This document shows, piece by piece, positions 55,282-64,000 of a stretch of 64,000 nt of DNA. The position numbers and the translations under genes are program-made. The notes under the pieces are model-generated. The model was not told where the DNA came from and did not search any database. It was given only the letters and a program-made list of their open reading frames with translations. Position 1 is the first letter of the stretch. Each line of letters begins with the position of its first letter. Origin of the DNA: Candidatus Methanoperedentaceae archaeon. Lineage in GTDB: Archaea > Halobacteriota > Methanosarcinia > Methanosarcinales > Methanoperedenaceae. The stretch covers positions 1-64,000 of the forward strand of contig PQAS01000002.1 of the NCBI GenBank assembly GCA_003104905.1, in the 5' to 3' direction.

Positions 55282-55319
55282 TTCACCTCTTTTCACACCC
55301 TCATTTATATTTGTGTGAA
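55282..55319 (+). promoter_or_regulatory. Promoter with CTTTTCACA box (HEAT-CheC gene)
   Basis: CTTTTCACA lies six bases before TTTATAT, and another TTCAC is further upstream. The same box at the same distance precedes the KaiC-like gene (60875-60904). TTCACAC and GTGTGAA also form an inverted repeat around this TATA box (55292-55298, 55313-55319). Confidence 0.5.
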
Positions 55320-55397
55320 TTCAAGGCAAATATATCTTTAGACTCGAGCAAGATGTATCTATGATGATAAATAATCGATATTATCGAGGAAATTAAA

Positions 55398-57314
55398 TTG
55401 CCTTTAGACCACACAGACTTAAGAGAAATGAAAAAACGCCAGGATATTGAGGGGTTAGTGAATATCCTTGAAACCGGCGATATAAAGGAATGCCGGGAAG
55501 CGATATGCATATTAGGAGAACTGAGGACCAGGAAGGCAATTACTCCCCTGATAGGATTTCTTGAAACTGACGATGTACAGATCCGTTCAAATGCAGCATG
55601 GGCTCTTGGCGAGATAGGGCACATAAAAGCTGTTTTACCGTTAATAGGCCTCTTAAATGATCCTATTGAAAATGTACGGATAAATGCGGCCTGGTCCCTG
55701 GGAAGAATAGGCGATAAACGCGCTTTATCAGTTTTGAGATATGCTGTGAAGAATGGTTCAACAGACCTTCGAAAACATGCACGGGAAGCAATAGCCCGGA
55801 TAGACTCCAACGGAAATGACAAATGGCGAAACATGTTAGAACCTGACAATTCTGATACCGTGGACAATCCTCTAATTGCGATTGAAGTCCCTTCAGATAT
55901 GGATTGCAATTATTTATCCAGAGTAGAAGATGATGAATCCCAAACAGATTACGAAAATATGGCAAGGTTCTCAAGGCATATCCAGATAAGAGATACATGC
56001 GATTCATTTTCAGAAGAGAACACACGAAAGATCGTATTGGGATTAAAGGACGATTCTAAGGGTCTGGTTTCAATTGATATTTTATTCAGATATAAAGATA
56101 ATCAAGGTATCGAAAGAAAGTCAAGTTCTGTGTGGCTGCAAATGTCAAGTCTTGATGGGGAACATAAGACTGAAAGGGAAATTGAAAGGATCGATTCCAG
56201 GCCAAAAGATAGAACGGGTGAAAGCAGTAAGAGAAAAGCGAAAATAAAACATTTAAGAAAGCCAAGACCTGTCGATTATGATATACCTGAGGAAATCGGA
56301 TTTGATCCAATCGACAAAGATCCGACTGATGAAGAGGACGAGAGGATAATCAATAAGAGAATAACCCGGCAAAGACATGGGACACAAGACAAAGAAGATA
56401 ATCAGGAAACAATAAAACCACTTAAAAGATTCCGGAAGACACCCGTTCCTGAATTGGACATCAATGAGATACCAGAACCAGTACTTGAGGAAACCGAAAA
56501 GGTTCCTGAGCAGCCCGGAGTATCCCAACCCGAACCTGAACAGGCTCTTGTTCCTGAACCCAGAGTATCCAAACCTGAAGCTAAACCTGATCCTGAACCC
56601 AGAGTATCCAAACCAGAAGCTAAACCTGCTCCTGTGCCTGAACCCAAACCTGAACTTCCTATCATACAGAAACCTGAAGTTAAAGCGGCACCCGAAATAA
56701 AGCCAATCGGGGGAAATGTAAATTCGGCCGTCCAGCTCTTGAGCGATATCGGCATGTCGGGTATGACCAATGCGGCTTCAACTGTTACTCAGTTATCAGG
56801 GGAGGAAGCGGAATCACTACATTCTAAATTGCGAACGCTTCCGATCGATGAAATGAAGGAAGAAATAACAAGTCTTGGCGATAATGTAGTTATGATCGGT
56901 GTGGAGCTTCATGGCAACGGCCAGGCAGGTGAAGTCAAAGGGGCGATGCAAATATATATTTCAAGCCAAACCGCACTTGATGTCGCTAATGACCTCCTAT
57001 GCAATACTCCTGATGCAGCGATAAAGGAATTCAACGAGGATATTATTTCTACATTAAAAGAAACTGCAAATATTTTTGGAGGTCAATATATCAGTGCAAT
57101 ATCCGAATATATCGAAGTGCCATTAACATTGAAGACGCCGACATTCAATTCAGGAAATTCTTCAAATGTTGCCGAATCTGTATTGAAAGAAATTACGGGT
57201 AAAATAGAGTTTGCCCTTGCAACAAATTTACAATTGGGAAATAATAGGATCGGACATTTGATAATGCTGGTTGATACAAAATCCTTTGATATTATTATAC
57301 AAAAGCTCTTTTAG
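55398..57314 (+). CDS. HEAT-repeat and CheC-like domain fusion
   Basis: The 638-residue protein has three to four HEAT/PBS-lyase repeats at the N-terminus (about 15-135; NAAWALGEIG, NAAWSLGRIG), a charged linker of unknown fold, and a proline/glutamate-rich stretch containing a tandem repeat. The C-terminal domain (about 435-638) resembles the CheY-P phosphatase CheC. In CheC two ExxN-type active sites are usual. The second is intact here (LKETANIFGGQYISAIS); the first reads LSDIGMSGMTNAAS and has lost both residues. It could sense or dephosphorylate a response regulator. Start TTG, preceded by GAGG; an ATG ten codons later is possible. Confidence 0.75.
   Translation: MPLDHTDLREMKKRQDIEGLVNILETGDIKECREAICILGELRTRKAITPLIGFLETDDVQIRSNAAWALGEIGHIKAVLPLIGLLNDPIENVRINAAWSLGRIGDKRALSVLRYAVKNGSTDLRKHAREAIARIDSNGNDKWRNMLEPDNSDTVDNPLIAIEVPSDMDCNYLSRVEDDESQTDYENMARFSRHIQIRDTCDSFSEENTRKIVLGLKDDSKGLVSIDILFRYKDNQGIERKSSSVWLQMSSLDGEHKTEREIERIDSRPKDRTGESSKRKAKIKHLRKPRPVDYDIPEEIGFDPIDKDPTDEEDERIINKRITRQRHGTQDKEDNQETIKPLKRFRKTPVPELDINEIPEPVLEETEKVPEQPGVSQPEPEQALVPEPRVSKPEAKPDPEPRVSKPEAKPAPVPEPKPELPIIQKPEVKAAPEIKPIGGNVNSAVQLLSDIGMSGMTNAASTVTQLSGEEAESLHSKLRTLPIDEMKEEITSLGDNVVMIGVELHGNGQAGEVKGAMQIYISSQTALDVANDLLCNTPDAAIKEFNEDIISTLKETANIFGGQYISAISEYIEVPLTLKTPTFNSGNSSNVAESVLKEITGKIEFALATNLQLGNNRIGHLIMLVDTKSFDIIIQKLF
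56553..56630 (+). repeat. 39-nt tandem repeat in proline-rich linker
   Basis: Two 39-base units, nearly identical, encode PEPRVSKPEAKPD/A. Flanking PEP-type codons look like decayed further units. The linker can change length by slippage or recombination. Confidence 0.8.
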
Positions 57315-57445: not shown

Positions 57446-59362
57446 TCAAGTATTGATCCATTCATTAACGAGTTCACCTACTTCCTGTGCATTCAATGGC
57501 CGATCAAATCCAAAAGGAATTATGGCGTTTCTGGAGTCATTTATAGCTTGCATTAGATCCCCTGTTTCTATTATATCAGGATTATTACCAAGACGTCTGT
57601 AGAATTCCAGGATATCGATCTTGACACCTTCATCTCCTGACACATATTGTACAATTCCATCATTACTTATTGTACCAATTATCTGGTAAGTTCCAATGGA
57701 TATATTTGCCGGTGATGTCAATGTATAGGTGATGTTCCTGGGGATTCCCGGTAACATTTCGAGCAATATCCATTCATGTGTACTGTTCTTGAAACCATCA
57801 TCAGATGTGTATGTTACATTCCATCCTTCAGGAATGTCTTCATGAAGATTCAATGCCTGGTTTATGCTGCTTGTGATACTGATCGTAATATCTGTGGATT
57901 CACCGGGGAGAATAGATGTACTTTCTATTTTACGGGTCGCGTTCATAAATTGCACGAAAGTAAAGTTGACCATTTTTTGGGATTCGATATTTCCTGCATA
58001 ATCCGTTGAAAAGTATGTTACATTATTCTGTCCGAACGTATCAACAACGAATGGCACTGTGTATGTCGTTGTATTACCACCGTTAACACTGAAGAAAGTC
58101 TCATTAACACCCGATCCTCCCGGATTATCCGTGGCAGTTAAACTAATAGTCACATTATTATATGAACCATTCTCAGCAACACCCCAAATATTCGTTATAG
58201 GCGGGATTATATCCATTCCTAATCCACTGATAATAGTAAAGTTAACCATCTTTGGGGATTCTATATTTCCTGCAACATCCTTAGACCAGTATGTTACACT
58301 ATCCTGTCCGATTATATCAACAATGAATGGCACTGTGTATGTTGTGGTTTGACCACCATTAACGCTGAAGATTGTTTCCTTAACACCCGATCCTCCCGGA
58401 TTATCTGCAGCTGTCAAAGCAATGGCCACATTATTATTATACAAACCCTTTTCAATAACCCCGCTTATGTTCGTTTCAGGTGGAATAACATCTACTGGTA
58501 CACTGGTAATAGTAAAATAAACCGTCTTTTGAGGTTCAATATTTCCTGCATTATCCGTAGACCAGTATGCTACACTATCCCGTCCGATCGTATCAACAAT
58601 GAATGGCACTGTATATGTTGTGGTTTGACCACCATTAACGCTGAAGATTGTCTCCTTAACACCCGATCCTCCCGGATTATCCATAGCAGTCAAAGTAATG
58701 GTTGCATTATTATTATACAAACCATTCTCAGTAACGCCATTTATGTTCGTTTGGGGGGGAATCGTATCTATTGGCAATTGATTGGCTATTGTAAAGTTAA
58801 CGATCGCTGGGACTTCAATATTTCCCGCATTATCTATTGACCAGTAAGTTACATTATTCTGCCCGTTCGTATTAACAACGAATGGTATGGAATATTTCGT
58901 TGCCGGACCGCCATTAGTACTGAACATCGTCTCCCTGACACCCGATCCACCCATATTATCCGTAGCAGTTAAAGTAATAGTTACGGCAGTATTATATGAA
59001 CCGTTTTCAGTAACGCCACTTATATTCGTTTCAGGTGGAATAGTATCTGCCGGCGCAGGTACTCCGGGAGGAACTCCTATAGATAACAACGCGCCTGCTG
59101 GATTTGAACTGTGGCTTGTTATGGCTGCAAATGCATTTCCATAGGAATTTAAGGCAGGTGGGGAAGTATGGCACGTACTGCATGACGTGCCGGTGGTTCC
59201 ATACACGGATTGAAGTGCTCCGAAATAGCCTGAGTTTGCCGATGCTTCGGGCATTATTACAAGGGCCGATATTAAGAGCAGCAATACAACATTAAATATA
59301 TTATTCATATAAAATTTATATCCATTTTGCATATTTATACCTGATTCATATTTAGTTATCAT
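57446..59362 (-). CDS. Secreted monohaem-type protein with four beta repeats
   Basis: The 638-residue protein has a signal peptide (ending PEASAN) and one CxxCH motif (TSCSTCHTSPP), which may bind a single haem c. Four tandem repeats of about 92 residues follow, each with IPPxTN...GSGV...VNGG...YWSxDNAGNIE, the OmpL47-type surface beta domain. A beta-sandwich (about 475-565) and a dockerin-like end (EFYRRLGNNPDIIETGDLMQAI...) complete it. The start is the ATG with GGAGAGG upstream; the frame is open 15 codons further. It is probably an extracellular structural or electron-transfer-linked protein. Confidence 0.75.
   Translation of the reverse strand: MITKYESGINMQNGYKFYMNNIFNVVLLLLISALVIMPEASANSGYFGALQSVYGTTGTSCSTCHTSPPALNSYGNAFAAITSHSSNPAGALLSIGVPPGVPAPADTIPPETNISGVTENGSYNTAVTITLTATDNMGGSGVRETMFSTNGGPATKYSIPFVVNTNGQNNVTYWSIDNAGNIEVPAIVNFTIANQLPIDTIPPQTNINGVTENGLYNNNATITLTAMDNPGGSGVKETIFSVNGGQTTTYTVPFIVDTIGRDSVAYWSTDNAGNIEPQKTVYFTITSVPVDVIPPETNISGVIEKGLYNNNVAIALTAADNPGGSGVKETIFSVNGGQTTTYTVPFIVDIIGQDSVTYWSKDVAGNIESPKMVNFTIISGLGMDIIPPITNIWGVAENGSYNNVTISLTATDNPGGSGVNETFFSVNGGNTTTYTVPFVVDTFGQNNVTYFSTDYAGNIESQKMVNFTFVQFMNATRKIESTSILPGESTDITISITSSINQALNLHEDIPEGWNVTYTSDDGFKNSTHEWILLEMLPGIPRNITYTLTSPANISIGTYQIIGTISNDGIVQYVSGDEGVKIDILEFYRRLGNNPDIIETGDLMQAINDSRNAIIPFGFDRPLNAQEVGELVNEWINT
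57944..59047 (-). repeat. Four tandem 276-279-nt coding repeats
   Basis: Repeat starts (aspartate before IPPxTN) are at 59047, 58768, 58492 and 58213. The units are highly similar in DNA, most of all units 2 and 3, which suggests recent duplication or gene conversion. Confidence 0.85.
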
Positions 59363-59654
59363 CTTTTTTACCTCTCCGCCTGTCTGATTATGTTTTTTCA
59401 CTTCCAATCCTGCAAATATATGTCATGGGCCACTCCATGGTCCTGTTTCCAGACCGAGATAGGAGAAAAAATCTATGCAGAATGCATCTCCAAAATCTCG
59501 TTTTTTATCTTCACTTATTCAACAAAAATATCTTTGTTGTGAACCATATTTAAACCTTTCGATTTTTATTAATAAATGATAATTATAATATAGATTATAA
59601 TGATACATTTGGAACGCAATAATTTTGTGTTTCTTTTAAAAAAATCAAAACGCA

Positions 59655-60785
59655 TCACGAAACATAGACTTCATTAGTGCGGATTACCTTTTCCACATCC
59701 CTTTCCAGTTTTGAAAGCATGGATTTGTCGACTTTCTTTCCTTTTAACTGTTCAATGAACATCAGGGATTTCGTATGGTCGTCAGGAAGCAGTTTCCATG
59801 TTGGCCTTTCCACATAGTAATCTATCCCGTTCGCATATGCCAGCATTTTTTCGCAGACATCTTCGCTTATCCATCCTATGTCAATATAATACTCCAGTAC
59901 TTCGGAAAGATTGTTCCGTCCCACTTTTTCCAGCAGGAATTCGATCCAGTTCAAAAGGATGATCGAAGTTTCCGTTTTATTATCCAGAGATTGTAATTTG
60001 ATATTTTCATCCGGATATTGCGGATCCGGATCTATAGTTTTTCCCGGTTCAAGCGTAACAGAAGAAGATTGTACGGCAGCCTGCTGTATGGATTGTTCTA
60101 TCATTGGTTTTATCTGTTCGATGACGGGTTTTATCCTTTCCATTACCTGGTCCGAGACATTCTTGATCATATCTTCCTGATTTGCCGGTGCTGAACCTAC
60201 TAATTGAGTTAGTTCTTCCAGGCTCCCTTCAAGCGCTTTGAATTTTATATCATATTCTTCTCTTATATTTGCAGGGATCTCGGAAGGTTTCTGGCTTATA
60301 ATATCAATTCTTTTCTCCAGCTGGTCCAACTTCTCGTTTGGAATCATTCCCTTATCCCCGACAAAAGGATTTACGGTACTTGAAACGACTTCATACAATG
60401 ATAATAATTCCAGAAGGCTCTCATCTATCTTATCCAGCCTGTCCTTAAATTCACCCACGGAAGTTTTAGTGGTTGATATTGCCCCTTCAAGTTTATTTAT
60501 TTTAACATCAAATTCCTTTATAGATTCAACACTTGTATTGAGCTGTTCTGTTTTTGATTTAACAATCTCTTCAATTTTTTGTGTCATTTCTTCCTGGGCT
60601 TTCTTGACCTGATCGGAAATATCAGGCACATTTGATGGTGTACCCGGGGAAGCAGAGGATGGAATGGAAGGGGAAACAGATAAAATTCCGGCATCTGGAG
60701 TCTTCTTGATGCGCTCGATCTTCTTTATGAGGGACTCTTCAGGCATCTTGAATTTTTTTAGTTTTTCTGAAATATCCTCAAACAT
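59655..60785 (-). CDS. Archaellum FlaD/FlaE-family coiled-coil protein
   Basis: The 376-residue protein has a long coiled coil (about 60-245) and a C-terminal FlaD/E domain (about 265-370; ILLNWIEFLLEKVGRNNLSEVLEYYIDIGWIS). In archaella these proteins (ArlCDE) link the motor to the chemotaxis system through CheF. No other archaellum gene is adjacent, so it may instead act in an ArlCDE-like adaptor for the FlaI/FlaJ system at 34-38 kb. It is divergent from the KaiC-like gene. Confidence 0.8.
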   Translation of the reverse strand: MFEDISEKLKKFKMPEESLIKKIERIKKTPDAGILSVSPSIPSSASPGTPSNVPDISDQVKKAQEEMTQKIEEIVKSKTEQLNTSVESIKEFDVKINKLEGAISTTKTSVGEFKDRLDKIDESLLELLSLYEVVSSTVNPFVGDKGMIPNEKLDQLEKRIDIISQKPSEIPANIREEYDIKFKALEGSLEELTQLVGSAPANQEDMIKNVSDQVMERIKPVIEQIKPMIEQSIQQAAVQSSSVTLEPGKTIDPDPQYPDENIKLQSLDNKTETSIILLNWIEFLLEKVGRNNLSEVLEYYIDIGWISEDVCEKMLAYANGIDYYVERPTWKLLPDDHTKSLMFIEQLKGKKVDKSMLSKLERDVEKVIRTNEVYVS

Positions 60786-60949: not shown

Positions 60950-61702
60950 ATGAGAATAAAATCAGGAATTGAAGGGTTTGATGTGCTGGTTGAAGGAGGA
61001 TTTCTGCAGGGAAGGCAGTACCTGTTGAGCGGTTCTCCCGGCAGCGGCAAGACTACTTTTGGCGTCCAGTTTCTTATTGCAGGGGCGCTGGAAGGCGAGG
61101 CAGGAGGATATATTGCATTATCCGAGAGTACAGGGACTATTATAGATGATATGTCCCGGTATAATCCACAGATCGGTGATCTGATAAAGAATAAAAAAAT
61201 GTTCTTTATAGATCTTGGTCCGTCTGTAAATTACGGGGAATATGATGAGGTAACAAATCTTATTACTCCTGATTATAGCCAGCAATCAGGCGAATCGCCT
61301 GCGAATAAACCTCCCACTCCTTTTACGGTATTTAAAGAAGTGGAAAACCAGGTAAAGCAGTTCGGTATTAAAAGATTGGTAATAGACTCAATCTCCTCGA
61401 TCAGGTTTACATCACAGAACCCGGCGTCTGAAGAACGTTCCGTGGGCAGGTTCATCCGCAACCTTAAAAACCTGGGGTGCACAACAGTACTGCTTTCCGA
61501 GCTTACCAAGCCCGATGCCTATACAATAGAACAATTCGCATCCCATGGCGTAATATTCCTTCATAATTTTATGAATAAGGACGGAACCATGGTCCGGGCT
61601 TTGCAGATCATAAAAATGCGCGGAACAAAGCACGACTGCGATATGCGAAGCATTGAATTCTCGGAAAAAGGTTTAAAAATCGGTAAACCGCTCAAAAAGT
61701 AA
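60950..61702 (+). CDS. KaiC-like RecA-superfamily ATPase
   Basis: A 250-residue single-domain KaiC-like ATPase with Walker A SGSPGSGKTTFG (about 28-39), a KaiC-type LSEST block and Walker B-like RLVIDSISSIRF (about 142-153). Archaeal relatives act in signalling and include ArlH, which regulates the archaellum motor. The neighbours (FlaD/E-like, chemoreceptor, CheC-like) support a signalling role. The 144-residue gene starts 16 bases downstream. Confidence 0.9.
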   Translation: MRIKSGIEGFDVLVEGGFLQGRQYLLSGSPGSGKTTFGVQFLIAGALEGEAGGYIALSESTGTIIDDMSRYNPQIGDLIKNKKMFFIDLGPSVNYGEYDEVTNLITPDYSQQSGESPANKPPTPFTVFKEVENQVKQFGIKRLVIDSISSIRFTSQNPASEERSVGRFIRNLKNLGCTTVLLSELTKPDAYTIEQFASHGVIFLHNFMNKDGTMVRALQIIKMRGTKHDCDMRSIEFSEKGLKIGKPLKK

Positions 61703-61718: not shown

Positions 61719-62153
61719 ATGACCGGCAAAATTGAAGGAAAAGACGGGGCAGAGCTTATAAAGAAAATATATGAGCTTGGCTTTGAGGTGGGACTAAAGA
61801 ACCACTCTGAAATAGGCTGGGTACTGAGAGAATATAATGACCTGATCTCAAAAGCCCTGAATCTGGGCATCAAATCACCTGATTCTTATTATGCTGACGG
61901 CAAGGTAAAGGGAAAAGCCAGCCGGGATAAAACTGTCGAGGGTCCAAAAACCCCTGAGAAAGAAACTGCTCCGGTCAGGAAGGTGGTTTTTTCAGAACAT
62001 GTGGCAGAACCTGTAATTCAAAAAGAGGTGTCGGGAATTGAACGCCGTCTGCAAAAACCTACGATGGACGAACTGCCAAAATTTGTAGAAAAAGGCAGCG
62101 CTACGGAAATTCCATCATTCCTTGAAGGATTTAAACAAACTAAAAGAAAATGA
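61719..62153 (+). CDS. Small helical protein following KaiC-like gene
   Basis: I do not recognise this 144-residue protein. The first 60 residues are helical (AELIKKIYELGFEVGLKNHSEIGWVLREYNDLISKALNLG, in part) and might be a small interaction domain. The rest is charged, proline-containing and probably disordered, ending in a motif-like LPKFVEK...EIPSFLEGFK segment. Tight spacing suggests it works with the KaiC-like ATPase, perhaps as an adaptor. That is inference. Confidence 0.7.
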   Translation: MTGKIEGKDGAELIKKIYELGFEVGLKNHSEIGWVLREYNDLISKALNLGIKSPDSYYADGKVKGKASRDKTVEGPKTPEKETAPVRKVVFSEHVAEPVIQKEVSGIERRLQKPTMDELPKFVEKGSATEIPSFLEGFKQTKRK

Positions 62154-62927: not shown

Positions 62928-64000
62928 ATGGTTAATATAAAAGATATTTCTTTAAGTAGAAAGTTGATCGGTGGATTTAGTATTGTTGTGATACTTCTTG
63001 CCATCGTAGGAATTATTGGATATAATGCAGTAACTACGGTAGATTCAGACCTAAGTAACATCCTCGCTGACAAAGAGTTGTCAGACGATGCTGCAAAAAT
63101 GATAATAGATGTCACTGCCGTAGGAGAGTCTGTCAATGCTTACGGTCTTGGGGAGAAAGAGGCAATAAAAGATTATCAGGCATCCATAAAGGGATATGAT
63201 CTAGCCCATGAGGAAATTCTCAGTATGGAGTTGAGTGATGAGGAAAGACAGGTTATGACCAAAATCGATGCACTCCATAATTCTTATCAGGAATCGGCAG
63301 ACAACTATATTCAGGTTATCGATGAAACAAATGCACAGAAGAATGCCAATGTGGTGGCAGCCATGGAAAAGTTCATGGAGGATGGGAAAAAACTTGATGA
63401 AGCTCTTGTAGAATTTGAAAATATCCAGACGATCAAGGAAGAAGAAAACAAAGCGGGTGCTGCCCTGGCATCAAGAAATGCCATTATGGAGATTCTTATT
63501 GTAAGCATTATTGCCGGAATCCTTGGATTATCCATCGGGCTATATATCTCCCGCTCTATCACAAAACCAGTGGACGAGGTTCTATCGGGTGCAAAGACAA
63601 TCTCAGAAGGGAAACTGGACATCAAGATGCATAATGATTCCGCTGACGAAATCGGTGTACTTTCAAGCACATTCCAGAACATGGCGAATGATTTGAATGA
63701 AGTTATCGCGGATTCCAATAAGGTACTTTCCGCAATGTCCGAAGGTGACCTGACCAGGAATATATCAGTAGAGGCTAAAGGAGATTTCAAGAAAATCACA
63801 ATGGGTATAGAGAATATGCAAGAAAGCCTGCATAAACTTCTGCTATCAATGAAGCAAAGCGCAGAAAGAGTGGCTTCCACTGCCCAGGAACTCTCAGCTT
63901 CAAGCGAGGAAATGAAAGCCTCCACTGACCAGATCTCAAGTACAACACAGGACATTGCCACAGGCGTAAGCTCACAGGCCTCAAAGATGGCTGAGATAAG
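62928..64000 (+). CDS. Methyl-accepting chemotaxis protein, 3' end outside window
   Basis: An uninterrupted frame from ATG at 62928 (GGAGGAATAAAATG) runs off the window after 357 codons. It has a first transmembrane helix (about 16-36), a helical 4HB-type outer ligand domain, and a second helix (about 189-209). Two HAMP units follow (KPVDEVLSGAKTISEGKLDIKM... and a second around SEGDLTRNI), then the start of the signalling coiled coil with methylation-helix-like ASTAQELSASSEEM. It would relay a signal to CheA. The receptor tip and C-terminus are outside the window. Confidence 0.93.
   Translation, partial: MVNIKDISLSRKLIGGFSIVVILLAIVGIIGYNAVTTVDSDLSNILADKELSDDAAKMIIDVTAVGESVNAYGLGEKEAIKDYQASIKGYDLAHEEILSMELSDEERQVMTKIDALHNSYQESADNYIQVIDETNAQKNANVVAAMEKFMEDGKKLDEALVEFENIQTIKEEENKAGAALASRNAIMEILIVSIIAGILGLSIGLYISRSITKPVDEVLSGAKTISEGKLDIKMHNDSADEIGVLSSTFQNMANDLNEVIADSNKVLSAMSEGDLTRNISVEAKGDFKKITMGIENMQESLHKLLLSMKQSAERVASTAQELSASSEEMKASTDQISSTTQDIATGVSSQASKMAEI

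Follow-up and report, generated by a model that had tools for sequence, protein, structure and literature searches.

A HEAT-repeat protein fused to a CheC-family domain as a candidate taxis output protein of the Methanoperedenaceae

Archaea of the family Methanoperedenaceae encode an unusual protein, in which HEAT repeats are fused to a CheC-family domain with one predicted working phosphatase centre. We propose that this fusion is the taxis output protein of the family, i.e. a scaffolded, single-centre CheY-P phosphatase at the archaellum motor that is FliY-like in function, and we consider the chances of this reading evenly balanced. The CheC-family domain would dephosphorylate CheY-P through E555/N558, while a long flexible linker would tether it to a scaffold of HEAT repeats and a beta-rich domain. 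Either or both of these parts would act as a dock, most likely holding the CheC domain at the ArlCE switch complex, in which case the signal would be ended at the motor, as by bacterial FliY. The gene was found in a window of 64,000 nucleotides, i.e. positions 1 to 64,000 of contig PQAS01000002.1 (Candidatus Methanoperedentaceae archaeon, assembly GCA_003104905.1), and its features are given in Table 1.

Table 1. Features of the fusion gene, its promoter and its neighbours (positions in the window)
Feature	Position	Strand	Evidence or remark
Palindromic operator (putative) TTCACAC-N14-GTGTGAA of the gene's own promoter	55292..55319	+	Exact arms and 14-nt spacer in 18/18 genus members
TATA-box-like TTTATAT within the palindrome	55304..55310	+	Sequence; putative TATA box
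GAGG ribosome-binding site	55386..55389	+	Sequence; 8 nt upstream of TTG
HEAT-CheC fusion gene	55398..57314	+	638 aa, TTG start; ORF calling
HEAT-repeat domain, residues 1-138	55398..55811	+	Pfam HEAT_2 1.7e-23; nine helices in AlphaFold model, mostly pLDDT 70-90
Conserved beta-rich domain, residues 152-256	55851..56165	+	Homologue alignments; strands in low-confidence model
P/E/K-rich flexible linker, residues 257-437	56166..56708	+	Composition; 17-66% pairwise identity
CheC-family phosphatase domain (predicted), residues 438-638	56709..57311	+	Pfam, NCBIfam and PDB profile matches
Degenerate first active centre DIGM, D450..M453	56745..56756	+	E and N both absent in 18/18 homologues
Second active centre ETAN, E555..N558	57060..57071	+	Intact; invariant in 18/18 homologues
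ArlCE-type archaellum switch-complex protein, FlaC and FlaD/E domains	59655..60785	-	PF04659 1.7e-26, PF05377 2.5e-13
KaiC-family ATPase, conserved neighbour	60950..61702	+	PF06745 2.8e-47; adjoins ArlCE in several relatives
Conserved protein after KaiC-like gene, no named family	61719..62153	+	Pfam scan, relatives' loci
Methyl-accepting chemotaxis receptor, past window end	62928..64000	+	HAMP 2.7e-14; first of receptor/CheW array (L055)

The gene is real, since dN/dS against its nearest relative is low in both the HEAT part (0.02/0.27) and the CheC domain (0.04/0.26), while the linker between them drifts among relatives. The TTG start is common to all 18 genus members compared. ORF calling as well as Pfam, NCBIfam and PDB profiles bear out a preliminary description of the open reading frame as a HEAT/CheC fusion. 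There, N-terminal HEAT repeats were joined to a C-terminal CheC-like domain by a proline-rich linker, which agrees with the Pfam matches and with the linker composition (31 P, 28 E and 22 K of 181 residues). However, the conserved beta-rich domain at residues ~152-256, between HEAT repeats and linker, had been overlooked. The N-terminus also matches HEAT_PBS (1.4e-14). For the beta-rich domain, comparison with Pfam, PDB and CheF gave no credible match; consequently, its assignment to a known Pfam or PDB family was rejected, and a CheF-like PH domain was rejected too (hhalign probability 0.3%). FliN/FliM-type motor domains are absent from the fusion, as the Pfam scan returned only HEAT/Arm-type and CheX/CheC families.

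The assignment of the C-terminal domain to the CheC family speaks for the proposed phosphatase. Pfam CheX (PF13690, cut-off 27) scores 28.0 bits on the full window protein and 30.8 bits on the CheC domain alone, while Pfam CheC (PF04509) scores 17.0 bits on the window protein, which is under its cut-off of 22. If members are scanned singly, CheX matches 18/18 and CheC 15/18 (Pfam, E<=0.01). The NCBIfam model NF041093 (CheC_Thtogales) aligns from position 7 to 199 of 201 with residues 444-637 (5e-12, under the equivalog cut-off). Searching the PDB with a profile of 18 relatives delivered CheC of Thermotoga (1xkr/2f9z, 5.6e-8), archaeal CheC (3qta, 0.0023), CheX (3hzh, 0.019) and FliY (4hyn, 0.065). 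The C-terminal profile search suggested in the preliminary description thus gave a CheC-like domain by sequence, and no other fold was matched. However, the AlphaFold models of this domain are poor (pLDDT 44, from shallow alignments of 4-5 sequences), which counts against the motor phosphatase; only the HEAT part is reliably modelled. Foldseek with the poor C-terminal model found CheC-like 3qta as best match, but with E 0.09 and TM 0.18, and we do not use this match as evidence.

A second active centre left intact and a first one without its key residues had already been described, and both observations hold in 18/18 homologues. In the first centre of all of them, E is replaced by D or N, and N by M, K, I, L, T or H. 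Where CheC has two centres, the fusion thus has only the second E-x-x-N centre intact, and this invariance supports the proposed phosphatase as well. Judging from the alignment, in which centre 2 is kept and centre 1 lost throughout, the single-centre state is an old and fixed property of the fusion. A degenerate first centre as such is not unusual, because single-centre members of the CheC/CheX family, such as CheX, are known. The stand-alone CheC of the same genome has both centres intact. A recent copy of it as source of the fused domain was rejected, since the latter stands on a long branch of its own in the CheC tree. It groups weakly (92/94) with additional CheCs of Methanosarcinaceae, possibly through long-branch attraction.

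The fused CheC domain occurs in 20 of the 34 Methanoperedenaceae genomes, two of a second genus included, and relatives of the fusion come from Candidatus Methanoperedens, from an archaeon with the label Methanosarcinales and from another with the label uncultured archaeon. A survey of domain architectures, also suggested in the preliminary description, thus found the fusion widespread only within one archaeal family. A profile of the CheC domain matched 17/391 Halobacteriota genomes; its matches >300 aa comprised four out of the five family members sampled and two haloarchaeal frames (408 and 421 aa). However, this profile is blind to most ordinary CheCs, as it matched 17 genomes though 263 have CheA. 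Consequently, HEAT fusions with other CheC subfamilies could be missed. No description of a HEAT-CheC fusion was found in the open-licence literature (CheC/CheX with HEAT; Methanoperedens/ANME chemotaxis). Carriage on viral contigs was rejected, as the viral scan found no such contig with the fusion.

According to one study, che and flagellar genes vary between Methanoperedens genomes (PMC11264602). CheA (PF02895) was detected in 23/34 family genomes. Among the 25 genomes that are >=90% complete, 17 of the 18 with CheA encode the full fusion and none of the seven without CheA does, which argues for the motor phosphatase. The remaining CheA-positive genome, G002, encodes HEAT repeats and beta domain only (290 aa, L005/L117), with the operator kept and no CheC domain. 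Thus the CheC domain is not always needed, a point against the motor phosphatase. The nine genomes <90% complete comprise two with both CheA and fusion (G019, G025), three with CheA only (G011, G027, G032), one with the fusion only (G023) and three with neither (G010, G028, G029). In an ArlCE tree of 11 che-positive and 6 che-negative genomes, the two groups separate on one branch (100/100). The association of fusion and CheA is thus one evolutionary event, not many independent ones, and weighs less in favour of the motor phosphatase, as shared history could account for it. Members of the archaellum switch protein family were found in 31/34 family genomes, che-less ones included.

On the contig, the genes after the fusion gene are a cell-surface gene, ArlCE, the KaiC-like ATPase, the conserved protein, PadR and an array of receptors and CheW. 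The KaiC-, FlaD/E- and receptor-like genes noticed earlier were thus located (Table 1). The product of the cell-surface gene (57446-59407, minus strand) is of surface type; it carries a CxxCH motif (CSTCH) close to the N-terminus, as well as about four repeats that resemble each other, and may be a haem-bearing adhesin. An ArlC/D/E gene lies <=6 kb away on the same contig in 11/20 full-fusion genomes, and fusion gene and ArlCE are adjacent and convergent in L101, L102, L103 and L107. In L101-L103 the fusion gene is located between ArlCE and a gene termed sec550, while in 6/6 che-less loci (G001, G013, G014, G017, G022, G030) ArlCE adjoins sec550 with no HEAT-CheC between them. Both observations argue for a function at the motor. 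However, ArlCE is on another contig in 8/20 full-fusion genomes, and no ArlC/D/E gene was found in G023. Taken together, CheA co-occurrence, the ArlCE/receptor/CheW neighbourhood and the CheC assignment support a taxis role, so that the earlier interpretation as a specialised chemotaxis or motility regulator stands in part.

One might speculate that the protein is not involved in taxis at all and instead dephosphorylates a different response regulator, or is linked to fpo. The gene indeed follows fpoO in the window, in L003-L006 and in L107, and another receiver protein is encoded near the archaellum operon. However, the fpo link is not conserved, being missing in L101-L103, and we rejected the assignment as an fpo-operon gene. 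Since the fusion gene also has its own conserved promoter and is absent from che-less genomes >=90% complete, a function outside taxis is highly improbable.

The che genes themselves are part of the archaellum operon. In G000, archaellins, arlF/G, arlH, arlI, arlJ, cheY, cheB, cheA, cheR, cheC and cheD follow each other on one strand, and L097, L100, L104 and L105 agree with this order as far as they reach. The archaellum genes in it are presumably named correctly, based on similarity and order. Some che-less genomes (L106, L118-L121) contain a second type of archaellum cluster with two adjacent arlI copies, which adjoins ArlCE and is without che genes. L122 contains ArlCE and sec550 and no arl cluster within the stretch read. 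On another contig of the home genome (L054:2531-4198), a 205-aa ArlD-like protein is encoded directly after a 349-aa actin-like protein. With cheD in the che operon, and receptors and CheW near the fusion gene, the fusion might function in adaptation or at the receptor array instead of the motor, e.g. through binding to CheD like an ordinary CheC. Yet the stand-alone two-centre CheC, whose gene adjoins cheD, suits that role better, and the closest conserved neighbour of the fusion gene is ArlCE; we thus regard this possibility as improbable.

A different question is how CheY-P reaches the motor in this family. CheF is described as an archaeal adaptor that binds CheY-P below ArlCDE (PMC9126983). 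Pfam CheF (PF04283) matched 0/34 family genomes, while the Methanocaldococcus, Haloferax and Methanosarcina controls were positive. A profile built from 18 CheF proteins and tuned to Methanosarcinales/Methanomicrobia matched none of the 34 at E<=1 either, save one 19-aa chance frame. Of the genomes from outside the family, G100 and G113 are in the query alignment of this tuned profile, while in G403, which is not, CheF was found at 7e-116. The fusion itself gave no CheF match, and Pfam and profile comparison found no sequence relation. The family therefore seems to be without the usual link between chemotaxis and motor, though cheY directly follows arlJ, and the fusion may contribute to a substitute for that link.

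Two versions of this idea can be formulated. In the narrower one the fusion replaces CheF: its CheC-fold domain would mainly be the CheY-P receptor of the motor, like bacterial FliM/FliY, the HEAT/beta part would relay to ArlCE, and hydrolysis would only reset the system. We consider this unlikely. The other sees the Methanoperedenaceae as having an archaellum-coupled Che system without CheF, in which a scaffolded CheC-family domain would be both receptor and eraser of CheY-P at the motor, an independently arisen archaeal counterpart of FliM/FliY; this we put forward tentatively, as rather doubtful. The replacement of CheF is weakened by che-positive G002, and the absence of CheF is not unique. 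Among 391 Halobacteriota genomes CheA was found in 263 and CheF in 177, and thus solutions other than CheF exist; at least 86 of the 263 are without Pfam CheF match. In addition, CheF could have diverged past recognition, or another protein could do its job. In some Methanosarcinaceae there is another che type, whose operon has several CheC genes and no CheF; its CheA is ~52-54% identical to that of Methanoperedens. One such operon with four CheC genes also encodes a PilM/FtsA/MreB-like protein of 706 aa (L090:11849-13969). In G037, a divergent CheF-like frame of 207 aa (L111; 6e-11, tuned profile) is located at a distance of ~10 kb from a che operon that has no CheF.

The proposed motor phosphatase has precedents in H. 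salinarum. The HEAT_PBS protein OE2401F interacts with CheD and with a CheF there, and it is indispensable for switching (PMC2666748). CheC2 binds CheFs, and the authors drew a comparison with FliY, which is located at the motor of bacteria (PMC3579733). Dephosphorylation of CheY-P at the motor was suggested in this work as well (PMC2666748, PMC3579733). Thus motor-side dephosphorylation by the fusion is plausible, and the fusion would unite OE2401F-type and CheC2-type roles in one protein. Like OE2401F, it would be a HEAT protein that belongs to a taxis system in archaea. However, OE2401F-type proteins are pure HEAT proteins of 405-464 aa that adjoin CheF in 4/4 loci read, and they comprise neither beta nor CheC domain. 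We rejected the idea that the HEAT part descends specifically from OE2401F: the profile match (98%, 1.3e-13) is one that any HEAT pair may give, and among the pairwise matches listed, further HEAT proteins of Methanosarcinales resemble the fusion equally well or better. With this generic HEAT match and no CheF in the genome, the fusion is not an OE2401F ortholog next to CheF, and the generic nature of the HEAT similarity counts against the motor phosphatase.

The fusion also resembles other known systems in part. It agrees with CheC (Thermotoga maritima 1xkr/2f9z; archaeal 3qta) in sequence profile along most of the domain and in the second E..N centre, whereas CheC is stand-alone and the fusion has HEAT repeats and beta domain attached, its first centre lost and a long tree branch of its own. 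FliY, the bacterial motor phosphatase (4hyn), likewise joins a CheC-type domain to a motor-binding part, which is the role proposed for the fusion, but the partner domains are unrelated and the sequence match is weak. CheF holds the place between CheY-P and ArlCDE that is proposed for the fusion; however, CheF combines PH-like domains with a C-terminal domain that binds CheY-P, and it has no bona fide phosphatase domain (PMC9126983). Schlesner et al. (2009) left open the taxis role of HEAT-type taxis proteins coded elsewhere, outside the haloarchaea. The fusion is a concrete candidate for such a protein, in environmentally important methane oxidisers. With che genes within the archaellum operon and CheF undetected, it becomes testable whether the link between CheY-P and archaellum can be built differently.

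The promoter of the gene is conserved as well. The palindrome lies 17-107 nt upstream of the start in 18/18 genus members with upstream sequence (G025 is outside this count, as its upstream region is off the contig), while the two sister-genus genomes have approximate forms only. With exact arms it occurs once in the window and was not found elsewhere in 623 kb of family loci. Its position over the TATA-box-like sequence suggests a repressor site.
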